Shown piece by piece: positions 1 through 61,743 of a stretch of 64,000 bases of DNA. The notes beneath the pieces were generated by a model that saw only the letters and a list, made by a program, of their open reading frames with translations, did not search any database and was not told where the DNA came from. Position 1 is the stretch's first letter, and each line of letters begins with the position of its first letter. The DNA is from Hysterangium stoloniferum. Lineage: Eukaryota > Basidiomycota > Agaricomycetes > Hysterangiales > Hysterangiaceae. The stretch spans positions 62,001-126,000 of the forward strand of contig WHVD01000044.1 of assembly GCA_015178975.1 (NCBI GenBank). The letters are read 5' to 3'. The translations under genes and the position numbers were made by a program.

Positions 1-1397
1 CCCGATCAACCTCAGTGGTCTCTTGATCAACAAGGTTTCATTAGACTTGACGATTGCATCTATGTACCAGACTCCGACGGCCTCCGCCTCAGGATCCTTC
101 AATACAAACATGATCATCCACTCTCAGGACATTTCGGGTACAACAAAAATCTATCATTAATAAGAAGAGAATATACTTGGCCCGGACTCCATGGATTCAT
201 TAAGCACTATTGTAAATCTTGCACTACTTGTCCCTGCTCGAAATCTCAGCGACACAAGCCATACGGCCTTTTGAAACAACTCCCGGTACCAGAACACCCG
301 TGGAATTCTATCTCTATGGATTTCATTGAACACCTACCAGATTCCGAAGGCTTTTCTGCTATTCTAGTCGTTGTTGACAGATTCTCAAAACAAGGTATAT
401 TCATCCCTACTTATGATACAATTACGTCCGTGTAGTTAGCAGAACTTTTCATCATCCACATATTTTCCAAGCACGGAGTTCCGTCCCACGTGACTTCCGA
501 TAGAGGATCAGAGTTCGTGTCTCACTTCTTTAGATCCCTCGGAAAATCCTTGGACATGACATTACATTTCACGTCCGGACATCATCCAGAAGGTGACGGA
601 CAAACTGAATGCGTCAACCAGACATTGGAACAATACCTCCGCGTATATTGCAACTACCAACAGGACAATTGGAAAACCTTGTTACCACTTGCAGAGTTTG
701 CTTACAACAATGCACCCTCAGCCACTACGGCGTTTCCCCGTTTTTTGCAAATAAAGGATATAATCCAAATATTACAGTACATCCAGAATGAAATCTCGCC
801 TCTGCTCGCGCTCAAGAGTTTACCACGGACCTCCACGAACTCCACGAGGAACTTTGGACTGCAATATTGTCCACCCAAGAGGAATACCAACATTCAGTGG
901 ACAAACACCAGATCCCACCACCCAACTTCAAGATTGGCGACCGTGTTTATGTCAAAGCTCAATTCTTCCGGACTACCCGTCCATCAAAGAAGCTTGCTGA
1001 AAAATATTTAGGTCCATTTGAAATTATTGCACAAGTAGGTTCAGTCTCTTGGACTCTATGGCTTCCGGATAGCATGCGTGCGGTACACCCGGTATTTCAT
1101 GTTTCTATGCTAGAACCTTGTACTGCTAACACTATCCCGGATCGCATGCAATCTCCGCCTCCTCCTGTCGTCATTGATGGAGAACCCGAGTTTGAAATCT
1201 CACAGATTTTAGATTCAAAAATAGACAAGCATCGACGCACTTGTAAACTGCTTTACTTGGTCAAGTGGGCGGGTTACGAGGGCACCGATGAAGAGACCTC
1301 ATGGATTTTGGCCACGGAACTCGGTAATGCCACAGAAATCGTTACTGACTTTCATACAGCTTACCCGCTCAAACCTGGACCATTATCTTCTCTCTAA
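1..1397 (+). pseudogene. gypsy pol 3' end: integrase + chromodomain, broken
   Basis: Reads as the H2C2 zinc finger, DDE integrase core and C-terminal chromodomain of a Ty3/gypsy polyprotein. Visible parts are the His/Cys finger (about 105-240), first Asp in MDFIEHLP (about 316), second Asp in SDRGSEF (about 496), Glu in DGQTE, and a chromodomain around 1190-1330 (FEISQILDSK, then LVKWAGYEG and ETSW). It is broken by an in-frame TAG at 433-435, where the paralogue at 58.5 kb has CAG (Gln). A one-base deletion near 727 also moves the frame. Translation ends at TAA 1395-1397. The chromodomain would target insertion to modified chromatin. Confidence 0.92.
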
Positions 1398-1608: not shown

Positions 1609-2591
1609 TCAGTCTACATTTATGGGACTGTGTTTTTTCCCCACCTCCTCAGCTACCTCTCCAGGAAGCTCTGCGACCTCCACGGCAACCCCCTCCTCAT
1701 CTGACCCAGCATCCTCGGAACTCCCGATCTGCGGCTCTTCATAGACATAGCCACCATACTCTGCCAGGAACTTCCAAAACTCCTCGCAGAGTCCGGACAG
1801 CTCCTTTGCCACCACAATTTGGACCTTGTTGCTCTTCTGGAGCAAGTCATTTTGGGCCTCGGTGCCCTCGGTGATCCGTCCAAGGACCTTATCCAACCTG
1901 GACAACCCATCCGTCCCGCTTATGTCTCACATCCCGGACCCTGTGGCCTGCTCGTGCACAAGCGAGCACCTCGCTTTGAGGTGCACGCATTGGTAACATC
2001 CCAGACCCCGGCTGGACTTTCGGTTGCATTCCGTGTTCCGGTCATTGCAACTGGAACACCGCGGCTCGTTCCGCGTCGGAAGACGGACTGGCGCCACCTT
2101 CCTTGCCTTCTGTTGATATGGTCAGTTTCCGCAGTTATCCCACAGACATGAGGCCTACCTTTTGGGGGCTCTCTGGCTCCCCCTCAGACTCGGACTCCAC
2201 CTCTGTCGCTTTGCGCTGAAAATCACAAGTCAGTAAAGTTCGACAAGTGAAATTTGGGACTTACTTTTCCCGCAACAATGGTGGCCCTCTCCGCGGCCAA
2301 CCGGGCTTTCTCTGCAGCCACCTGGGCATTCTCCGTGGCCACTCGCACAGCCTCCTCCGCCTCACGTTCCCTCTCCTTTGCGGCCTCTTCCTCCGCGGCC
2401 AACGCTTCCTGGTACTCTCTGTCCAGGGCCTCCTCGGCCTCCCTCACCTCTCTCTCTGCTGCTTCACGAAGCTGGCGCTGCTCTTCTCGCCATGCCAACA
2501 ATTGGGCCGCACTCCAAGGTGCCCGATACGGAGAGCCCATGGAGGGCCCTGCTGTAGGCATTGGCTTGCGTGGTGTTGGTTTTGGTCCCAT
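1609..2591 (-). pseudogene. antisense element-borne Zn2Cys6/coiled-coil gene (family A copy)
   Basis: This gene lies opposite to pol, between pol and the 3' LTR. Proposed exons are 2591-2265, 2215-2159 and 2109-1609, with introns of 49 and 49 nt (GTAAGT...CAG and GTAGGC...CAG). Exon 1 encodes a Glu/Ala/Arg-rich coiled coil. Exon 2 is acidic. Exon 3 has six cysteines at 2058-1966 spaced C-x2-C-x6-C-x9-C-x2-C-x6-C, the fungal Zn2Cys6 spacing, then a second helical segment and an acidic tail. A TATA box lies 52 bp or more upstream of the ATG. An in-frame TGA shortly after the cysteine module (where CGA would be natural) truncates it. The homologue at 59592-60564 has introns at the same places. 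Function unknown; a DNA-binding or regulatory role is inference. Confidence 0.75.
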
Positions 2592-2801: not shown

Positions 2802-3655
2802 TGTTACGACCGGACAATCCCGCCGGACTCTGGGCACTAACCCGTATGCCCCCACGCGCTACAAGCACCAATCGTCTGTTTATAGGATTTCCCACCCGGA
2901 CTCCGTTACGTCAAGACTCGTTACGTTCAACCTCATTACGACACATATCAGTCACCGGACTTCCCCTGGACTCCATCTCTGTCTATGTCCGTCTTCATCC
3001 CACACATCAGTCACCGGTCCCCACTTAGAATCCCATCACTGCTCTAATCGAGCCCCGTTCCCGTTTTAGTCAAATGACCTGTCACGATTTAGGACTCCGC
3101 TCCTGCTCCGTTTCCCGTTATGGGTTATGCTTTGTCACGATTTGGACTCCACTCCATTCCGTTCCGTTCCTAACACCAATTTGGTGTTTACTATTCCCAT
3201 TTTATGTTTTGTTAGTTTCGTTTCATTATTACTGGATTTGGTATGTCATGCATTCCACAGTCTATATAAACTGGCAGATGTTGTACATACAATCCAGTCA
3301 GAAAATTAGCTTAGATTCCCCCCAGTAATCTAATAATAGTTTCCGCTCTAAAACCTTACTCGATTCACATCGCTCACACTAGTCACGGGCTCCAGCGCAT
3401 CTATCTCTCTCAACCAACTCGACTCACGACCCATGACCTCCAACTTATGACCCACGACCTCCGACGTACGACCCACAACCCCCGACTTATGACCTACGAC
3501 CCACAAACCCCGCCTGGACTCCCCGGGATCCCCATCTGTCCGTTTGAAATTGGACAACACGATCTAGCGAGGGCGCAGCCTATAAGCTGAAGCCAAGTCC
3601 TACCAGATATCCCGCGGGTTTCTCCAGAAACCCGGCCTGTGTGTGTATCCTAACA
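2802..3655 (+). repeat. 3' LTR of family A gypsy element (854 bp)
   Basis: Begins TGTTACGACC after the polypurine tract and ends TATCCTAACA where the foreign integrase sequence resumes. It has a TATA box (TATATAAA near 3262) and, near the 3' end, the block ATAAGCTGAAGCCAAGTCC (3582-3600), which recurs in several other LTR families of this window. A solo copy in reverse lies at 37280-38096 and a truncated copy at 43216-43577. Confidence 0.9.
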
Positions 3656-26211: not shown

Positions 26212-29200
26212 TCAAGCAACCTGCTGCTGCTCATAATATGGAACGGGCGGCTGCGACGAGTGCTGTTGCTGAGATTCGTGGTATAACGCCCCTTCAGCTT
26301 GGACATATTCATATCCCGGATCCTGAAATTGCGCGTTATGGTGGCAGGCGTGGGCCTGGGCATGAGGATGTTCAATCTCGATAGTCGGCGGGTGGTCCAT
26401 CTCGATGGTTTGTATCGGAGGATGCTCCAACTCCAGGCTCTGCACATGAGGGTGAGAAAGCGGGCGAGGACGGGGATGTTCCATGTCCACACTCCGTGCT
26501 TCATGACGATGACGAGGCTGCTCCATATCCATATCCACATCCACATCGTCCTGCTGGGAATGCGAATACCCATACTCAAATTCAGATGACGAGGATGCGT
26601 ATCCCGTATCCTGTGATTGATGGGGGTACGTCGAGGCATCTGGATATACGACGTCCTGACCTTGACCTTGACCTTGGGACGAGGCGGAGGTCGAGTACGA
26701 GTCTTGTGAGGCTGAATAGGCCGAATCCCGCGACGTAGGATATATCGCGCCACGTCCATGCGTATAATCCTGGTCATGATAAACGTCCGCATACTCAACT
26801 TTATACGCAAACTCTCCCGTATCGGAGTATTCGTACGCCTGTTCAGGATACATCTTCCCCTCCACATCCACATCCACATCCGTGTCCACACCCCTAGCCT
26901 CACCACCATAATACATCTTCTCCGCTTCCAAATACCCCGCCTCTGCCTCAGCTTCAGCCTCAGGATACAGCTTCCCTGCTTCCGAATACTCCGGCGTCCC
27001 CGCAAACGGACTACTTCCTGGACTAACGCTTGCACTAACGCTCGTGTACTGCGTACCGGGACTAGGCTGGGGTGTGTACGGCGCAAACGACGTATTGGTC
27101 CCGCTGCTAGGTGTGTATGATGCATTAGTCCCGGTGATAGGGGTGTGCGACCCTGATCCTGACTCCGCAGTCACAGTCGGCATCGACGCATACACCGAGC
27201 TCCTCCTACCCTGAGGCCCAGGTCCAGATTCAGGTCCAGAGGTGAACGACGATGACGGATTCCCGCTATTGGGGGTGTATGGCGTGAACGGTGAATTGGC
27301 GTATGGGGTGTAGGACCCATAGGACGATGTGGACGCGGAAGTATACACTGAAGGCGCAGGTGCAGGCGCGGGCGCAGCGTAGGGGTGATATCCCCTTCCT
27401 GCGTTGGCGTTACGCCAGCTTTGTCCGGCCCCCGTCCCTGTTCCGGTGGTGGGACGCGTTACAGATATGGGAGTAATTGTAGACGTGGAGGTAGTAGAGG
27501 TAACGATCGTGGAAGAGGCATATGTATTTCCTGAAAAGGAAATCAAACAAAAAGAAATCAGTACAATTATCCAAAGGGCAAACAGGAACAAAAAGAACAA
27601 AAAGGGAGACCCACCAAATTCACCCGCCCCGAACACCGGCACCTCATTAGCAGTCGAGGGTCTCCTCTTGCCTAACACTCTCGTCATGCCACTGCTGCTA
27701 CTGATATTAACGCCCTGCGAATTAACACTCCTTGGCCTTGTAGCCTCAAAAGACGTATCACCCCCTGACCCCGACCCAAATCCAAACGAAGCATCACTAT
27801 CAAACGTCACCCTCGTCGGCGGTGCAGAACGTGGCGCCGATGCCGAGACTAACTTCGAGGTGGAGATAGCAGGGGGGGCATGGGTATGATACGATGGCGG
27901 CGACGCATTCAAATTATACGCAAACGGCGGCGGGCCATCCACGCTCTCTGCACAGTGACCATGACCATGGTTCTTGTGATGCGGATGTACCATCACAATA
28001 GGGGAAGTCGGCGATATAGGCGGGTACGATGTCGAGGACAGCGACGGGGAGGGATATTGATCCGTTGCTGCCACCCCGCCGCCAGATCCAGCTCCATCAC
28101 TATATCCCCCTCCATTGCCGTTACTCTCATTGTCGTCCATCTCCTCCTCGCTATCCTTTTCTCCATCCCACCTCGGACTTCCGTCAGGTGTGGTGAGAAT
28201 ATGTGCAAACTGAGGGATTTCGGGGCTGGGCTGGTGATGGTGTTGTGCGGTGTGATGAGTGTCCCGGTGTGTCTTTTGGTGCTGGTGCTGGTAGGGATGC
28301 GCATGTGCGAATGGTGACATTGCAGCAGAGGTCACTGTTGAAGCAGAAGTAGAAGTTGAGATTTGAGCGATCGGTTGCGTAGTGGGAATTTGAACTTGGG
28401 CTTGAAGTTGCGCCTGCGTGTCCCCCTGCTGCTGTTGATGACATGCCATATGCACACCCAACGCCCCCTCGTTCGCAAAAACGCGTCGACACGTGAACAG
28501 CGGGCAGACGTGGCCTGGCGGGGATGGGGCAGCAGATTGATGTGCGTGTCCGTGGGGGTGAGGGTGGGACAGACTCAAGTTGGGGTAAGCGGGTGGGTGT
28601 GGGTGGGAGAATGAACGTTGATGAGGCTGCCCACCCTGGACATGCGCCCTGATCGGCGCAGCCATAGGCATAGGCTGGATCCTCCTCATCCCGTATACGT
28701 GTCTGTGGCCATGGCCATGTCCATTCATACTCCCTACCCCATCCCCGGACTCCAAATTCAAAGTCAGCCCCAAAGCTCTCGTGTTTTCCAACCCCATCTC
28801 TACCTCCATCTTGGCGTCCAAATCTAAATCCAAGATATTTCCGCCTACCGCGTCTTCCCAACTCCTCCTCCCGTATTCCCGCGATGCACCAGCGACGCCC
28901 TCCCAGCTCCGCCTTGCACTTCCCTCATCAAAACTCCTCCTCTGAAACTCAACGCTCCCGCCCTGTTCTAATGTCATCCCGTCTCTGTCCCTATTCATAG
29001 GGATATCCGTATCGAAACTTGCCCTGGTCTCCTTCCCCTCCACACTTGCACCCAACCTTATCCCATTAGTGGGAGCACCCTTTCCGACACCTTTATCTTT
29101 AGCAGCCTTCTTTCTGCGCTGTTTGTATGTTGGCGTGCCTTCAAGGAAGGCGAACATGTTGAAGAAAGAGGAGCCGCGGGTGCGGGTGTGGGTTGCGGTT

Positions 29201-30379
29201 GCGGTTGTAGACGTGGGTGTGGGTGCAGATGTGGTGGTGGTGGTGCTGGATGGGAATGAAGACCTGATATTCACAGTTTTTATGTCAGCGGCATTAGTCT
29301 TCAAAGGACGTGCGATATGCGAGTACGAGTGTGACTGCGGTTCACTTGTGGCGCTTTCGAAGGAGGACCGGGCGCTGGTGCTAGCGGTGTTGGCGCTGGT
29401 CGCGAGTGATAAATCGGGCAGAGACACGGATGATGCACGTGCGCGGAGACGATGACCTGGTGTTGAGCTGAGGCTGGGAATGGCGAGTGTGTTCGAACAC
29501 GCCGACTGAGTTCCAGAGTTGGTATTATCATTGGGGTTGGACTGAGACGCAGGGTTGTTGGGATTAATATTGGAATTAGGATTTGAGCCCAAGGAAGGTG
29601 AATGAGACCCAGATTTCGTAACGGCATTGACCTGTTCAAAGAGGGGCCTTTTGGGATCATATTCAAAAGAGAGTGCTGGCTCGGCGACGATGCTAGTGGT
29701 AGACTCGAGGCCCATCTTTTCGCGCTTCAGGTCGCGTTCAAGGGCGTCAATGAAGAGACGGTCATGGGGGACTGAGAACCTATCGTGGATTATTAATGGC
29801 CCGCGGGGGGTATTGGAAGTTATTATGCCGTTTTCTCACCAGTAAAAGACCTTTTGCTTCTTTTGAGTGCGGATGCATTGGTATTTGAAAAGTAAATCCA
29901 AGAATGGCGACTGCGGAATATAAACTAAACAAAAGCAAGACGACGACAATAATTGTGAAAGAATGTACCTTGGGCTCTTCCAAACAGGCATCGGTGCCAG
30001 GCTTCAGATTCCTCAAATCACTGAAGACACCCTCTTCAAACTTTTTCATGTTGCGGACTGGGCGGCCAAAGGCTTCGAAACGGAATACGAGAGCACGGAC
30101 GATGTCAGTGCCTGTGATATGGTGCACACCATTCCACAAGATACAAGTGACAAACTCTCCGGATGGGAGGAGAAAACGGTTGAGGGCGGGGTGTTGCTGA
30201 GAGGATGGGATTGGGGTTGAGTGCTTTGACGAGCAAGATGGGGCGGTTGCGAGGAAAGATTTTAGGCGTTCAAGGTAGGGCATTAAGTTTTGTCTGCAAG
30301 GTAGTGTATAAGGGTGTGATAAATGCGACGGGTAAGAAGGAGGTTTATGAAGGATAATTGAAGATGAGTTGTCGTCCAT
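26212..30379 (-). CDS. STE12: STE12-type transcription factor
   Basis: Four exons: 30379-29969, 29910-29840, 29779-27615 and 27530-26212. Introns are 58, 60 and 84 nt with GT-AG ends. The total is 3966 nt, or 1321 residues. The STE DNA-binding domain spans roughly residues 60-180 across exons 1-3: LLPSGEFVTCILWNGVHHIT, FRFEAFGRPVRNMKKFEEG, CIRTQKKQKVFYW, SVPHDRLF and ALERDLKREKMG, all diagnostic. Near residue 586 is a single C2H2-like finger, CPLFTC with HMACH (C-x4-C-x12-H-x3-H). The rest is long Ser/Pro/Gln/Tyr-rich low-complexity sequence, so many overlapping false ORFs exist. The third intron is in frame and stop-free. STE12 factors act downstream of the pheromone/filamentation MAP kinase in the nucleus. 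The gene looks intact. Confidence 0.93.
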
Positions 30380-53680: not shown

Positions 53681-53753
53681 TAAGAACTGAAAACTGACTA
53701 ATGTCGGTAGGCTGATGGGGACCGATCAGAAGGACTTGGCTTCAGCTTATGTG
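53681..53753 (-). repeat. family B-like LTR end fragment, reverse
   Basis: TGTTAAGAACTGAAAACTG... to CAGCTTATGTG: 73 bp of the 3' end of a family B/D LTR in reverse, directly abutting the 5' LTR of the complete element. The continuation is not found after 61457. Confidence 0.8.
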
Positions 53754-54473
53754 TGTTACGACCGTGTCGCAACCCTATCGGCCCCGAGGTTATCGCCACT
53801 TGTCAACGTTTCAAGTCGTCCCCTCGGAAACCATCGGCCCCGAAGCTGACGAATGTTTCGCGAAGATCAAACTCCATTTACGCCCACGTCAAATAACTCG
53901 TATTGTCTGGTCAAACTTTGATACGTCCCCTTTATTATGTTGATCCGTTCAATCTTATGTTTCGCATATGTCTATCTATATTTGTAGTCCTCGAACCATT
54001 TCCTTTTATCGTAATTCCGCTCTCGGTTATCATCGGCCTCCGAACTAATCATAAACTTCCCGTTCCTAGTCAAGCTTATTGTTAATACCGTGTTCCGCCC
54101 TTCTCCCCATTAGTATTTTCCAGACGCCTGTTACTTGTATATGAACCCGCTGTAATTGTAGTTACTAGACAATCAGAATATCGACTCAGAATACCCTCAT
54201 ACACCTGTATCAGTCTCATACTAAGACTTCCCCCATCCGCCTTCGCGTGCGCTCGCCCACTCCCGGCCCCGACCCCTTGGCCCGACGCTCGACTTGTCCT
54301 TCGATTCCGATCGGTATCACGCCGAAAGGTACTCACTAGGACTAGTCTTCGCCCGCCCGAAATTTAAGGACATCCTGCGGATATTTGCGAGGGCGCAGCC
54401 CATAAGCTGAAGCCAAGTCCTTCCGATCGGTCCCTGTCGGCCACCGACATTAGTCAGTTTCCAGTTCTTAACA
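53754..54473 (+). repeat. 5' LTR, family B (720 bp)
   Basis: TGTTACGACC...TTCTTAACA. TATA box TATAT at 54138-54142; putative transcript start near 54171 (AATCAGAATAT); shared block at 54401-54420. Confidence 0.96.
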
Positions 54474-54475
54474 GT

Positions 54476-54486
54476 ATATTCTGATT
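54476..54486 (+). other. self-primer binding site
   Basis: ATATTCTGATT, two bases after the LTR, is an 11-nt perfect complement of AATCAGAATAT at 54171-54181, which lies about 34 nt downstream of the LTR TATA box. Tf1 and related chromodomain elements prime reverse transcription by folding back the first 11 nt of the transcript. No TGG tRNA site is present here. Confidence 0.75.
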
Positions 54487-54511
54487 TCACACTCGCATTT
54501 TCCGTCTAAAC

Positions 54512-55809
54512 ATGCCTCCGAGGAAAAATGCCAAGCCTAGCGGCGAAGCAGAATCTTCCACTCTCAAGTCTCCTTTTCTGTATACAGCCCGAGCTACTCA
54601 GAGAACCCCACTACCAGAAACCTCCGAAGAATCTCGCTTTGTGGAGATTACCGGCGATGCTGAAGAAGTAACTGAAGCAACCGATCCCGAAGCAACTGAG
54701 GAGATTAACAATCAACCAGTTTCGGAACACGAACCCGAGGATGGCGACCAACCTCAGGCTAGTGGCTCCAAGAAGTCTGCAAAGAAGAAACCGGCTCTCG
54801 ACCCTGAAGAAACATGGGAATTGTTTTCAGGTACACTAGGATCCCTTAACGAATTCCTTAAAAGCAATATCAAGGAAAAGGAACCTGGGCAAACCCGAGT
54901 CAACAAACCCGAGCCATTCACTGGCTCAAACCCGAAGAAATTGCCGACATTTCTTATGCAATGTCGATTCAACTTTCGGGACCGCCCGGCTGCATTCGCA
55001 ACGGATGACCGAAAGGTAAACTTCGCACTCTCATACCTTAAGGATTCCGCAGCAGCCTGGTTTGAACCCGCATTTTCTGGCCTCACCTCCGAAGACCCCG
55101 ATTGGCTCCACGATTGGGATGCCTTTGTCAAGGAACTCGAAACCAACTTCGGCCCCTACGACCAAACCGGCGATGCAGAAACCGCGCTTTCTAATCTCAA
55201 AATGAAAGACACTCAGCGCATCACCGATTATATCGTCCAGTTCAACAACCTCGCCGCGCGTTGCGACTGGGGCGATTCGGCCCTCCGTTACCAGTTTTAC
55301 TCCGGCCTTCCGTCTCGCCTCAAAGACGAAGTTTCCAAGGGAGAGACCGGCAAGCCAAAAACCCTCCCTCTCATGCGCCTGAAAGCCCAAAATGCAGACG
55401 CTCGATACTGGGAACGACGTTTGGAAATCAGTCGCGAAAACCCGTCGGACAAAAAATCATCGGACAACAAAAATGCCAACAAGTCTGGTAATCAAAACAC
55501 CAATAACACTGGCAACTCGACTTCCGATAAGAAGTCCGAAAACAAAGGGCTAACGACAAAAAAGGCAAGGGCAAACAGTCGAATAAGTCTCAAGACAAAG
55601 ACAAACCCGACCTAACTGGCAAACTCGGCTCCGATGGCAAGCTCCTACCACAGGAAAAGCAACGCCGAATGGACAACAACCTTTGTTTGTTGTGTGCAGA
55701 TCCCGGACACCGAGTCGCTGCATGCCCAAAAGCCACAAAAGCCCGATCGGCCAACACGGCCACGACCTCACAACTGGCCAAGCCGGCTGCCGAGTCGAAA
55801 AAAGATTAA
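54512..55809 (+). pseudogene. gag with CCHC knuckle; one frame change
   Basis: 54512-55615 starts MPPRKNAKPSGEAES. The capsid-like core is at about residues 140-290 (GSNPKKLPTFLMQCRFNF, AAWFEPAF, YIVQFNNLAARCDWG, FYSGLP). Near 55545-55564 the natural reading moves back one base and continues to the knuckle CLLCADPGHRVAAC (about 55684-55725) and TAA at 55807-55809. The overlap contains A-AAA-AAG (55558-55564), a classic -1 slippery string, but a lost G in the nearby GGG run explains it equally well. Gag forms the particle. Confidence 0.8.
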
Positions 55810-58800
55810 GCAACTCTCTGGATTCCGTGCGGTTGGAGAGTTGCGTTGAATCTCCTCGCACACCGGAAAATTGTCATCTTAACGCATCCGCATTGTATGA
55901 TCCTAATTCTTTGTTCATAAATCTTACTTCGGAACCTCTCGGGAGTTTCACTTTTCGAGCTCTCATAGATTCAGGTTCAACCCATTGTTTTATAGATACA
56001 AGTTTTTCCAGAAAAAATCAGTTGAAAACCTATGCAATAGATCCGATTCCGCTCCGACTTTTTGATGGTACCTCAAACTCCGTAATCTCGCAAGCCTGCG
56101 AACTCCGACTTCGGTTCCCGTGTGGAACCTTTCAGACAGTTACGTTTTTTGTAACACAGTTGGACTCGAGCTGCTCCGTGGTTCTAGGACATAACTGGCT
56201 CACCCGCTATAATCCGTTGATTGATTGGGTATTGAGCAGTATCCATTTCCGAACCCCGTCGGCACCCGATACGACTGGTCCGTTTCCGCCTGTTTCGGCA
56301 AATATGGCCTCTACAGCACCTCCGGCCCCCGTGGCAAATCCGAGCTCTTCGCCGCCCGTCTCTCTAATAAACGCCGCAGCTTTTATGAGAGCCATCAATT
56401 GGACGGCTCCCGAGCATTTACAGTCAATCTTAAAGTTGACGAAGTCACCGGTCGCTTTGCATCCCCGGTGACCGAACCGATCGCAGATTTAGAAGGTGTT
56501 CCTAAAAAATACCATGAATTTGCAGATGTCTTCAGTAAACAAAAAGCCGATCGACTCGCCCCTCACAGGCCTTACGATTTGAAAATTGATATTGAAGATG
56601 GTTCACATCCGCCCCTAGGCCCAGTTTATCCTCTCTCGCAGTCCGAATTATCGGCTATCCGAGATTTCTTGGATGAACATTTGGCTATAGGTTTTATCCG
56701 ACCCTCAAAGTCTCCCTATGGAGCCCCTGTCCTATTCGTTCGGAAAAAAGACGGTTCCCTTCGACTTTGCGTTGACTTTCGAGGACTAAACGCGATTACT
56801 CGAAAAGACAAGTACCCATTACCATTAATCTCCGATTTACTCGACGCCCCTCGGAAGGCCCGAATTTATACAAAGATAGATCTCAAACACGCCTATCATT
56901 TGGTTCGGATCGCCGAAGGCGACGAATGGAAAACGGCTTTTCACACTCGCTATGGCTCCTTTGAATGGTTAGTAATGCCTTTCGGCCTCACCAACGCTCC
57001 AGTCGGTCTTTCAACGTTTTATCAACGACGTCTTTTCCGACCTCCTTGACATCTTTGTCATTGTGTACCTAGACGACATCCTCATCTTCTCCGAAGACCC
57101 TACACTTCATGATGAACACGTCCGTGAAGTCCTCCGAAGACTCCGAAAACATGGTCTTTTTGCGAATGGTAAAAAATGTTCTTTTGATGTCGACACGGTT
57201 GAATACTTAGGCTTCATGATGGGACCCGATGGTCTCCGCATGGACGACGCTAAAATTCAAGTCATTCAAGATTGGCCGGAACCCCGAAAGGTTAAAGATA
57301 TTCAATCCTTTTTAGGCTTCGCCAATTTTTATCGCCGTTTCATTCACAATTACTCAAAAATTACCGTTCCGCTCACTCGTCTTACTCGCAAAGACACCCC
57401 GTGGAATTTCTCCGAAGAATGCCGATCGGCATTCCAGGAATTGAAAAGTGCGTTTACATCCGCCCCTATTTTGTCGCACTGGAAACCCGACGTTCAACTC
57501 ATCGTGGAAACTGATGCTTCGGACTATGCGCTTGCCGCGATATTGTCCATTCTGGACACCGATGGTGAAGTACACCCAGTAGCTTTTCTGTCTCGCACAT
57601 TTTCGGCGCCCGAACTCAACTACGACGTTCACGATAAGGAATTACTCGCAATATTTGAAGCTTTCAAGACATGGCGACATTATTTGGAGGGCTCGGCCCA
57701 CCCGGTAGATGTTATTACAGACCACAAAAATTTAGTTTACTTTTCAACCACAAAACTTCTCACCCGTCGACAAGCTCGATGGTCCGAATACCTCTCCGCT
57801 TTCAACATGGTAATTCGCTTCCGTCCCGGCCGCCTTGGTGGAAAACCCGACGCTATGACTAGACGATGGGACGTCTATCCTAAAGAGGGGAGTAGCGACT
57901 ACGCCACAGTTAATCCGCATAATTTCAAACCTATGTTTTCATCGGAACAACTGTCCGCATCTATCCGAGCCACTTACCTCATTCATCCAGTCTTGCGAAG
58001 TGTTATCCTTATGGATACCGAAAAGTTACATCAAGACATACTATCGGCAATTCCATTAGACCCAGTCACCAAAGCACACCTCGATAACCCGTCCGACCCC
58101 GATCAGCCCCGATGGTCATTAGACTCACAAGGTTTCATTCGACTTGACAATCGCATTTATGTACCGGATTCCGACACCCTTCGGCTGCGAATCCTACAAC
58201 ATAAGCACGACCACCCAATCTCAGGACATTTCGGCCTCAATAAGACCCTCTCACTCATTAGAAGAGAATATACATGGCCCGGCATCCGAGATTTTGTTAA
58301 GCACTATTGTAAATCCTGTACTACGTGTTTACGCTCTAAATCACAGCGACACAAACCATATGGCCTACTCAAACAATTACCGATACCGGAAAAACCCTGG
58401 AACTCGATTTCTATGGATTTTATCGAGCACCTACCGGCATCCGAAGGTCACACAGCAATCCTAGTTGTTGTGGATCGGCTCTCAAAGCAAAGTATTTTCA
58501 TTCCAACATATGACACGATAACATCTGTACAGTTAGCTGAATTATTCGTTACCCATGTATTTTCCAAGCATGGCGTTCCGTCGCATGTCACATCCGATCG
58601 CGGATCCGAGTTTGTCTCTCACTTCTTTAGGTCACTCGGAAAAGCACTAGACATGAAGTTACATTTCACTTCGGGCTATCACCCGGAAGGCGATGGACAA
58701 ACCGAACGCATGAATCAAACCTTGGAGCAATACATCCGTGTCTATTGCAACTATCAACAAGACAATTGGAAATCACTACTACCGCTGGCTGAATTCGCAT

Positions 58801-59495
58801 ACAACAACGCACCGAATGCCACTACTGGCATTTCGCCTTTCTTCGCAAATAAAGGCTACAACCCCAACATCGCAATCCACCCGGAACGCGATCTCGCATC
58901 CGCCCGTGCTCAAGACTTTGTTACAAACCTCGACGAGCTACATCAAGAACTTCGTAAAACTATCGCAATGGCTCAAGAACGATACCAACGGTCTGCGGAT
59001 AAAAACCGCCTTCCACCTCCTGATTTCAAGATCGGAGACCGAGTATTCGTTAAAGCCGAGTTTTTCCGAACTACTAGACCTTCTAAGAAGCTCTCTGAAA
59101 AATATTTAGGTCCTTTTGAAGTTATAGCACAAGCCGGCACGCTTTCATGGACGCTTCGGCTCCCCGACAACATGCGTGCAGTGCACCCGGTATTTCATGT
59201 ATCTATGTTAGAACCTTGTGTTCCTAACAATATACCGGATCGCATACAACCACCACCTCCACCCGTGATTATTGATGGGGAACCCGAATTCGAGATATCA
59301 GAAATCCTAGACTCAAAAATCGACAATCGCCGACGCTCATGCAAATTACTTTATTTGGTCAAATGGGCTGGCTATGAAGGTACAGATGAAGAAACTTCAT
59401 GGATCCTAGCTACAGAGCTCGGTAATGCCTCGGAAATCGTTTTAGGGTTTCACCAAGCTTATCCGAACAAACCCGGTCCTCTCAATTCCTTATAA
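55800..59495 (+). pseudogene. pol: protease, RT, RNase H, integrase, chromodomain; frame breaks
   Basis: Protease with ALIDSGSTHCFID (about 55955) in the -1 frame relative to gag. A one-base loss near 56390 (after FMRAI) shifts to the RT frame: [52 protein letters not shown] one-base gain near 57003 shifts again to 57063-59495, with YLDDILIF, RNase H (ETDASDYALA, HDKELLAI, TDHKNL), H2C2 finger (CKSCTTC), DDE core (SMDFIEHLP, SDRGSEF, DGQTE), and chromodomain (FEISEILDSK, LVKWAGYEG) near the end at TAA 59493-59495. Apart from these breaks all catalytic residues are present. The sister copy is at 1-1397. Confidence 0.88.
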
Positions 59496-59591
59496 GTCTA
59501 TCACGCGGTACCCGACCTTTTTCCGACTATGCCTTATGTTTTCACGCTATGATTTGTTTGTTTAAAAAGAAAAACCGATATATTTCACTAT

Positions 59592-60564
59592 CTAAGTTTC
59601 TCCCTCTACAACTTCTCCCTCCTCTCCGACCTCCGAACCCTCCTCCGCACCGACAGCCACCGATACCACACCACTGACCTTCTCCGAAACCCCAATTTCA
59701 TGCCCACCGCAACTCGAGACTTCCAAATACTGCTCAAGTTGACCACCGAGAGACTCGATAACACTGGTTTGTTTCTCCAGCCCGACGCCCAAGAGTCGCA
59801 ATTGTTCAGTCATGAGCCCTTGTTGTCGCAACATCTCATATCGGTACCGACTCGTCTCCAAGAAGTAGGTCCGCATGAGGCGGTTTTGCTCTTCTAGAGC
59901 ATCGGCCTGTCGCTCCTGGAATGAGCCATCGGCCCCCGGGAAAACACACCCAAGCTTCTGATCAGCGCACTCTTGACAAGTGCGGCCCCGACCATTGGTC
60001 CGGGGATGACAGGTTCGACCCCGTTTCGTGCACCAATTGCACTTGGGGTCATTTTCGGGCCCCGCCTTGGGGGCCTGCTTTTGTTTCTATAGAAAAAAAA
60101 TCATTTAGGAAGTTTTTTTAGGAAACCGAACCCACCTTGGGGCTCGACGGCCCCAGTGCATCCTCCTCGTCCTCCTCTCCCTCTTCGTCATCGGACTCCG
60201 AAGGCGTTGCAGCCTTGCACTAACAGATATTGTCAGTAAGGTTCGCAAAAGACACCAGAGCCGACTCACTTTTCCCTCCCGCTTCTTTTTGCCGCCTCCT
60301 CCCGCGCCCGATCGGCCTCCTGCTGCTTGTTCTTTGCAAGCACTGCTTCCCAGTGCTTGCGCGCGGCCTCTTCTGCCGCCTGTTTCTTTTCCTCGGCCTC
60401 GATGGCCGCCAACTCCTCCTTCTCTTTCCGCTCCTCCTCTTCACGCGCCTTTTTCTTCTGCTCGAGTATACGCCGACGCTCCTTCGCGTTCGCCGTACCA
60501 CTTGGCGCCGACGCGCAACTGTTAACCTAACCGGGAAGGGCTTTGACCCCGAGCCTATGGTCAT
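59592..60564 (-). pseudogene. antisense element-borne Zn2Cys6/coiled-coil gene (family B copy)
   Basis: Proposed exons 60564-60270, 60219-60136 and 60086-59592. Introns are 50 nt (GTGAGT...TTAG) and 49 nt (GTGGGT...ATAG), at the same positions as in the family A copy. Exon 1: Lys/Glu/Ala coiled coil. Exon 2: very acidic (ESDDEEGEEDEED). Exon 3: six cysteines at 60041-59946 spaced C-x2-C-x6-C-x10-C-x2-C-x6-C (CNWC, RTC, RTC, QEC, LGC), then a Glu/Arg/Leu-rich helix and an acidic tail. Exon 1 has a frame break near the ATG and a missing A in the AAAAA run before the first donor, so this copy is probably dead or mis-sequenced. Not a standard retrotransposon gene; a nuclear regulator role is inference. 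Confidence 0.75.
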
Positions 60565-60613
60565 GGTGGTTAAAGGAAGGGAAGTGGAATTTCAAGCGCC
60601 AGGAACTCTCAAC

Positions 60614-60620
60614 TTTTATA
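60614..60620 (-). promoter_or_regulatory. TATA box of antisense gene (family B)
   Basis: TATAAAA on the minus strand about 50-56 bp upstream of the antisense ATG at 60564, in the same relative place as the family A box. Confidence 0.6.
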
Positions 60621-60723
60621 TGCAAACTTTTGCCGAGTCACATGATGTTTGACACACCCAGCCGTACCCGACAAGTTTTTACGTACGGGATCTAGATTTT
60701 TCGGCCTCCTTGGGATTTCGGCC

Positions 60724-60734
60724 AAAAGGGGAGA
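60724..60734 (+). other. polypurine tract (family B)
   Basis: AAAAGGGGAGA, three bases before the 3' LTR at 60738. Confidence 0.8.
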
Positions 60735-60737
60735 TAC

Positions 60738-61457
60738 TGTTACGACCGTGTCGCAATCCTATCGGCCCCGAGGTTATCGCCACTTGTCAACGTTTCAAGT
60801 CATCCTCTCGGAAACCATCGGCCCCGAAGCTGATAAATGTTTCGCAAAGATCAAACTCCATTTACGCCCACGTCAAATAACTCGTATTGTCTGGTCAAAC
60901 TTTGATACGTCCCCTTTATTATGTTGATCCGTCCAATCTTATGTTTCGCATATGTCTATCTATATTTGTAGTCCTCGAACCATTTCCTTTTACCGTAATC
61001 CCGCTCTCGGTTATCATCGGCCTCCGAACTAATCATAAACCTCCCGTTCCTAGTCAAGCTTATTGTTAATACCGTGTTCCGCCCTTCTCCCCATTAGTAT
61101 TTTCCAGACGCCTGTTACTTGTATATGAACCCGCTGTAATTGTAGTTACTAGGCAATCAGAATATCGACTCAGAATACCCTCATACACCTGTATCAGTCT
61201 CATACTAAGACTTTCCCCATCCGCCTTCGTGTGCGCTCGCCCACTCCCGGCCCCGACCCCTTGGCCCGACGCCCGACTTGTCCTTCGATTCCGATCGGTA
61301 TCACGCCGAAAGGTACTCACTAGGACTAGTCTTCGCCCGCCCGAAATTTAAGGACATCCTACGGATATTTGCGAGGGCGCAGCCCATAAGCTGAAGCCAA
61401 GTCCTTCCGATCGGTCCCTGTCGGCCACCGACATTAGTCAGTTTCCAGTTCTTAACA
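60738..61457 (+). repeat. 3' LTR, family B (720 bp)
   Basis: Same ends and length as the 5' LTR. The ~15 differences are all C/T or G/A, several at CpG. Shared block at 61385-61404. Confidence 0.96.
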
Positions 61458-61743
61458 GAGATGAGAACAATGCTTAGAGCGAAGCTTTGAGACTGTGCCA
61501 ATCCTATGACCAGTAGAAACTGCAATGTGGCTACCTGAATGACTAGCATCAAGCAGTGAGAGGATATGATTCTGGCTGGCAAGAGACAAAGTGCGCAGTT
61601 GCTAAAGGTGATATATTTATACTCCAGTACAACATGGTCATGTGACATCACGTGATTTTGTTGATATGACCTACATAATTGGAGGTAAACAAATAACAAG
61701 CTCACATGACTATAAGCATTTATAGTCATTAAAGTTGCCAGCA
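61458..61743. other. unassigned flank
   Basis: Starts with GAGATGAGAAC. CTTAGAGCGAAGCTTTGAGA (61473 on) weakly resembles the reverse of the mid-part of family B/D LTRs, so it may be debris of the inverted LTR at 53681. No coding. Confidence 0.3.

Follow-up and report, generated by a model that had tools for sequence, protein, structure and literature searches.

A conserved, intron-bearing antisense gene with a six-cysteine cluster in two chromodomain retrotransposon families of the fungus Hysterangium stoloniferum

Several long terminal repeat (LTR) retrotransposons carry a gene on the strand opposite to gag and pol, and one of these genes, brtn of the fungal Boty-like elements, is reportedly the subject of a paper by Zhao et al. 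in Virology (2011). Boty-like elements with the antisense gene brtn occur in Botrytis cinerea (PMC7264820, PMC8365987). Additional antisense open reading frames (ORFs) of plants include gene23 of maize Grande, an ORF of rice RIRE2 and one with a TRP28 domain in Retand (PMC7264820, PMC11963269); gene23 is equipped with a promoter of its own and its product is nuclear (PMC7264820), and DNA binding is predicted for TRP28 (PMC11963269). The roles of such accessory genes are described as not yet determined (PMC7264820), and a figure legend elsewhere marks an additional ORF of unknown function (PMC2864245). An element-encoded protein of a different kind is VANC of the Arabidopsis VANDAL elements, which binds a short motif and causes methylation loss in its transposable elements (PMC5735166). 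Here we describe an antisense gene in a chromodomain retrotransposon, element B, located in a 64,000-nucleotide stretch of the Hysterangium stoloniferum genome (contig WHVD01000044.1, positions 62,001 to 126,000; hereafter the window), where an earlier note made from the sequence alone had proposed such a gene. It is a protein-coding gene of three exons, conserved in two element families, and we see hardly any room for doubt on this point.

Element B is a Ty3/gypsy element on the plus strand (53754-61458), in which the antisense gene lies between pol and the 3' LTR. It contains gag, with a zinc knuckle of its own read from the sequence, protease, reverse transcriptase (RT), RNase H, integrase and a chromodomain, in frames that are interrupted in the window copy. 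The chromodomain at the integrase C terminus places it among the chromoviruses, with a Pfam Chromo match (E-value 3.4e-05, 24.1 bits) just below the cut-off of 25.1 bits. An Rfam search over 53700-61500 found nothing. The antisense gene runs on the minus strand from an ATG at 60564 to a stop ending at 59592, exactly the limits first proposed, and 96 nt separate its end, tail to tail, from the pol stop at 59495. The earlier note had described three exons, an acidic linker, six cysteines spaced 2-6-10-2-6 and a TATA box belonging to the gene. We recovered all of these, with two GT-AG introns of 50 and 49 nt, the acidic linker encoded by exon 2, the cysteines in exon 3 and the box TATAAAAG upstream of the ATG (Table 1). 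What did not hold is that the window copy works: two lesions in exon 1 break its frame. Intact copies are found elsewhere in the genome. Exon 1 measures exactly 300 nt in 23 of the 27 other B copies compared, and 17 of these 23 have it free of stops.

Splice sites are retained throughout the copies that we aligned. In a set of close B copies (41 rows representing 40 distinct copies, since the window is counted twice) and in 21 rows of a second family, A, every row has GT and AG at the four splice positions. A mixed set of 28 B rows, which includes more distant copies, retains the dinucleotides in 25 to 28 rows depending on the position, the remainder being gapped or misaligned there. Among close B copies intron 1 is constant at 50 nt and intron 2 ranges from 47 to 63 nt; both introns vary in length in the mixed set and in A. 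Exon 2, of the same length in all close B copies, is also 84 nt in 25/28 mixed rows, and is 57 nt in 20/21 A rows. The TATA box is found in all close B rows and in 20/21 A rows. In one A copy (L069), a long T run has been inserted in intron 1 with both splice sites retained. Long open frames in some copies of family A suggested that intron-less retrocopies might provide proof of splicing; this idea was dropped, both introns being kept in 21/21 A rows.

Selection on the encoded protein was assessed with the NG86 ratio of nonsynonymous to synonymous substitution rates (dN/dS). Class medians decrease with divergence: in B (325 pairs, 26 rows) close pairs give 0.29-0.39 and the most distant pairs 0.14, and in A (190 pairs, 20 rows) the medians go from 0.34 to 0.22. 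In a frame control, the gene frame gave 0.21 and 0.23 in the two families, against 0.93-1.29 in four of the five other frames. The fifth, the mirrored sense-strand frame, gave 0.32 in both families, which we attribute to its codon positions facing those of the antisense gene. This mirrored frame has 8.0 stops per copy against 4.3 in the gene frame for A, and 11.4 against 4.8 for B, figures that also count missing codons. Outside CpG, TpG and CpA contexts, variability at the first, second and third codon positions is 0.033, 0.044 and 0.155 in B and 0.041, 0.033 and 0.141 in A; third positions are thus 3.4-4.7 times more variable than first or second ones. The earlier note had staked its reading on selection at the cysteines across copies and had proposed a dN/dS survey. 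Each of the six is retained in 25-26 of 26 B rows and in 19-20 of 20 A rows. B has two further cysteines, C70, retained in 6/25 rows, and C254, retained in 25/26. Three copies with exon 1 replaced or interrupted (L049, L064 and L080) were excluded from the dN/dS, codon-position, cysteine and frame-control tests, and the frame control also excluded both window copies. Divergent copies of both families were picked mostly from rows with a stop-free exon 3, a choice that could lower dN/dS slightly and should not create the contrast between frames. Together with the splice sites, this purifying selection bears out the proposal that the element carries, in antisense orientation, a protein-coding gene with introns.

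The gene of family A is a homolog. The window carries the 3' part of one A element, whose upstream part is in locus L093, and the antisense gene of this copy has one in-frame TGA in exon 3. Its layout is like that of B, with a charged helix in exon 1, an acidic linker in exon 2, a cluster C-x2-C-x6-C-x9-C-x2-C-x6-C in exon 3 and introns in phase 0. A and B share 79.6% of pol residues over the first 597 compared and 65% of gag residues over 223, whereas the identity of three A antisense proteins with the first B protein is 33-36%. The antisense protein has therefore diverged further than pol, and yet all six cysteines are invariant in an alignment of three A and three B proteins.

We then asked how widespread the gene is in its own genome (an assembly of 111 Mb in 554 contigs). 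A DNA search with a 1201-base query covering the antisense region gave 309 candidates, the best 40 of which are all full-length and 95-100% identical; as the query is the antisense region itself, copies devoid of the gene would not appear among these matches. The B exon 3 protein gave 434 first-look candidates, and the A protein 1276; the best 150 match in each case, so that the region is not an insertion confined to two copies, the outcome that the earlier note had named as a refutation. By hand count, exon 3 is free of stops in 68 of these 150 B matches and interrupted in 82; in A, the corresponding numbers are 111 and 39. All three exons are stop-free over the compared codons in 17/28 B rows (including the window row, read in register) and in 13/21 A rows. 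LTR pairs of B are 96.9-99.9% identical in nine of twelve loci tried, fewer than two LTRs being found at the other three, and exon 3 is stop-free in seven of these nine. From these pairs and frames, we conclude that the B family was active fairly recently with the antisense gene aboard. Family A seems larger than B, and 19 rows among its best 150 of 1276 candidates have one common E-value of 9.9e-93, as expected of a recent burst. In 2.2-2.3 kb fetched at each of five other chromodomain gypsy loci (L088 to L092, about four families), the six-cysteine pattern occurs in none of the six frames; the antisense gene thus seems not to be universal among chromodomain gypsy elements of this genome. One IMG/VR contig scan and one plasmid search gave no result.

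The N-terminal region of the protein has 74 (B) or 82 (A) residues devoid of proline and glycine, 82-84% of which are E, K, R, Q or A. The earlier note took this region for a coiled coil. We detected no hydrophobicity periodicity of 3.5 residues in it (permutation p 0.92 and 0.49), so that a coiled coil is no more likely than a single charged helix, and a long charged helix is the better description. A basic KRKA motif, the acidic linker, a second basic stretch, the six-cysteine cluster and a tail follow in this order; the second stretch (PKKQK or QKKARK) is presumably similar to a nuclear localization signal. Zn2Cys6 clusters of the GAL4 type (PF00172) are defined as CX2CX6CX5-12CX2CX6-8C, and the spacings 2-6-10-2-6 in B and 2-6-9-2-6 in A fit this definition. 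The antisense cluster also resembles GAL4-type factors in having basic residues between its cysteines; it differs from them in lacking the basic run and the proline usual in the loop, and in having no significant Pfam match. In an hhalign comparison with eight host zinc-cluster pieces, all six cysteines are aligned, at a probability of 59% and an E-value of 9.1e-05 that refers to a single comparison.

As to function, we suggest that the product acts on its own element, as a self-directed nuclear regulator or anti-silencing factor, and we give this reading a probability of about one half. The gene would be transcribed from its own TATA promoter beside the 3' LTR and then spliced; its introns, being antisense to the genomic RNA, would for this reason survive retrotransposition. 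The basic stretches around the acidic linker and the long charged helix suggest that the product may enter the nucleus. There it would bind zinc through the six-cysteine cluster, bind DNA of its own element, and either control expression of the element or protect it against silencing, by analogy with HBZ of human T-cell leukemia virus type 1 (HTLV-1) or with VANC. The antisense protein is more divergent than gag and pol while its cysteines are fixed, as would suit a recognition protein with a changing target.

An unguided k-mer scan provided candidate targets. B contains the word TCGG at a density of 22.3 per kb, compared with 0.4-8.2 in ten other sequences including A. All six B segments examined have 19-26 per kb, against 2.5-8.9 for three from A, and in aligned pol (1798 of 2429 nt identical) the word is found 47 times in B and 16 times in A. 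When codons were shuffled 500 times with protein and codon usage fixed, the 80 occurrences in B coding DNA (49.8 expected) were reached in 0/500 shuffles, and TCGG is the top 4-mer (z 5.2). In A coding DNA the top 4-mer is GGAC (67 observed, 42.4 expected, z 5.1); CCACGG (13 against 2.7) is the top 6-mer, second to CAACAA on rerun. The words of both families are spread over coding and non-coding DNA. A CGG triplet, contained in TCGG, is typical of Zn2Cys6 targets. We applied the same 4-mer test to five control sets of coding DNA: three open frames with other chromodomains at their ends, a further gypsy element and a long ORF. Neither TCGG nor GGAC is among the four best 4-mers of any control, and z for TCGG ranges from -0.9 to -3.7. 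The LTR of B contains CGG-N2-CCG three times and CGG-N3-CCG twice, where 0.2-0.3 are expected; with 48 half-site combinations examined (three arrangements by 16 spacings), single excesses of this kind mean little. We did not accept the density of CGG by itself as a signal, since element L090 also has 35 per kb. This enrichment hints at self-targeting. In its most explicit form, which we advance tentatively and consider rather improbable, each family would have filled its whole length, synonymous sites in gag and pol among it, with its own word (TCGG in B, GGAC or CCACGG in A), read by its own zinc-cluster protein, so that its own copies alone would be marked and either shielded or activated, with protein and word co-diverging after the A/B split.

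Several observations weigh against a self-directed zinc-cluster regulator. The best Pfam Zn_clus match, in two of six antisense proteins, falls below the cut-off at E=1.7, and a PDB search with the antisense protein gave no matching solved structure (best E=2.7). With these values and the hhalign probability above, membership in the GAL4-type family, whose spacing the earlier note had recognized, is not established; the spacing and the invariant cysteines stand. The word enrichment is a post hoc find, and top 4-mers of the control sets reach z 2.7-4.4, compared with 5.1-5.2 in A and B. The A words are only partly CGG-like, CAACAA containing no CGG, and ACAA/TTGT is the second most enriched synonymous-level 4-mer in both families. 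A mutational or reverse-transcription bias could be the source of the words.

Other explanations may account for part of these data. The idea of chance open frames in a repeat is scarcely credible: while the window copy is frame-broken and many exon-3 matches contain stops, as counted above, the frame control, the selection and splice-site tests and the homologous A gene all reject it. A more serious proposal is that the protein serves the retrotransposition cycle (nuclear import, packaging or tethering of integration), its charged helix and zinc cluster forming a module that binds nucleic acid or protein. Retention of a coding gene in recent copies agrees with such a role, and for plant antisense genes a part in retrotransposition comparable to that of retroviral accessory proteins has been suggested (PMC7264820). 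On the other hand, gag already has a zinc knuckle and pol a chromodomain, and an A-B identity of 33-36% against about 80% for pol appears to us fitter for specificity than for a structural role. We hold a function in the cycle to be possible, yet on the unlikely side.

Alternatively, the antisense transcript itself may be the agent, pairing with element RNA to feed or titrate RNA silencing, with the protein secondary. The tail-to-tail arrangement, with 96 nt between the two stops, would suit such pairing; double-stranded RNA has been raised as a possible role of antisense genes (PMC7264820), and transposon-derived antisense noncoding RNAs are described in Blumeria (PMC10648671). An RNA agent needs neither protein-level purifying selection nor phase-0 introns nor invariant cysteines, and this leads us to regard it as quite unlikely as the main agent, although both could hold. 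Equally little favored, if not slightly less so, is capture of a host zinc-cluster gene that would act on the host genome instead of the element. Genuine Zn_clus matches are numerous in the host genome (65/76 above the cut-off, by hand count), and the hhalign result aligns the six cysteines with those of host clusters. A capture would have to predate the A/B split. No host gene of such architecture was seen among the best 150 protein matches of each family, a search not aimed at one, and a progenitor could be hidden among the lower-ranked candidates.

Table 1. Features of elements B and A in the window
Feature	Position	Strand	Remarks
5' LTR, element B	53754-54474	+	97.9% identity to 60738-61458
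gag reading frame, element B	54512-55615	+	Pfam Retrotrans_gag, E=4.4e-14
pol 3' part, element B (RT end, RNase H, integrase, chromodomain)	57063-59495	+	Pfam RT_RNaseH, Integrase_H2C2, rve, SH3_Tf2-1, Chromo
Exon 3, B antisense gene (basic stretch, six-cysteine cluster 2-6-10-2-6, tail, stop)	59592-60086	-	Each of the six cysteines retained in 25-26/26 B rows
Intron 2	60087-60135	-	Phase 0, GT-AG; 47-63 nt among close copies, splice sites retained
Exon 2 (acidic linker, 28 codons)	60136-60219	-	84 nt in 41/41 close-copy rows
Intron 1	60220-60269	-	Phase 0, GT-AG, TACTGAC close to acceptor
Exon 1 (charged helix)	60270-60564	-	295 nt here; two frame lesions
TATA-like box TATAAAAG	60613-60620	-	About 50 nt upstream of antisense ATG; 41/41 close-copy rows
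3' LTR, element B	60738-61458	+	Paired with 53754-54474
pol 3' end, element A	1-1394	+	Protein 78-84% identical to B pol
A antisense gene	1609-2591	-	Exons 2591-2265, 2215-2159, 2109-1609; C2-6-9-2-6
3' LTR, element A (approximate)	2802-3655	+	Matches upstream LTR in L093 with 92.3% identity along 810 nt and 96.4% in a further 56-nt piece

Further observations concern accessory frames and zinc clusters elsewhere. Two other chromodomain gypsy families, at L088 (C441:1413850-1416020) and L089 (C323:346870-349070), have a related sense-strand frame after the chromodomain, with the common stretch SKEYRR.LH..G.R.PYAPDDPV, a second kind of accessory gene. In a further family (L090, C367:94150-96350), a 484-residue stop-to-stop sense frame begins about 0.75 kb into the stretch that starts at the chromodomain. 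Several Zn2Cys6-type clusters lie in short open frames at L094 (C56:39100-40000) and L095 (C115:74400-75150), and Zn_clus matches recur along contig C56. The window also contains a minisatellite with a 19-base unit (about 1.2 kb from 20625), a piece of an STE-like transcription factor on the minus strand (29780-30379, Pfam E=1.6e-29) and, downstream of it on the same strand (26212-29715), a frame of 1167 residues with no Pfam match at E 0.01. The STE-like factor and the Zn_clus matches of the assembly are gene content that marks the host as fungal.

Antisense genes of LTR elements are already known at such a site, in plants and as brtn of Boty. HBZ, the product of a spliced gene, is a basic leucine zipper (bZIP) protein and in this respect is unlike the protein described here. 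As in our proposal, it is encoded antisense at the 3' end of its LTR element and is a nuclear regulatory product (PMC11963269, PMC7264820), but its antisense promoter is inside the 3' LTR (PMC7264820), whereas the TATA box of B is just within the internal region. The gene brtn likewise belongs to a fungal LTR element and lies antisense between pol and the 3' LTR; its host is an ascomycete, and the descriptions by which we compared it mention no zinc cluster, introns or selection test (PMC7264820, PMC8365987). The plant ORFs have the position and orientation seen in element B, but the word 'zinc' occurs 0 times in the main texts of PMC7264820 and PMC11963269, and Retand belongs to a non-chromovirus lineage (PMC11963269, PMC7264820). 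None of the literature matches listed, a coverage from which subscription papers are mostly absent, describes a fungal LTR element with an antisense zinc-cluster gene, nor was one found by term in the excerpts of PMC3248453, PMC10799480 and PMC2864245.

The present case offers two families, young copies, conserved introns suited to a splicing test, a cysteine cluster suited to a zinc test and a candidate target word for each family. In genomes of this type, a number of short gene models with a zinc cluster may belong to transposons. For the self-directed regulator that we favor, the most relevant comparison is VANC, an element-encoded DNA-binding protein with a short target motif that its own family contains in excess and that is not the same in related elements (PMC5735166), DNA binding being putative in our case. 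VANC motifs are mainly non-coding and in tandem repeats (PMC5735166), whereas the words in A and B extend over coding and non-coding DNA alike. If self-targeting is true, the antisense gene would be the equivalent, among retrotransposons, of the VANC system.
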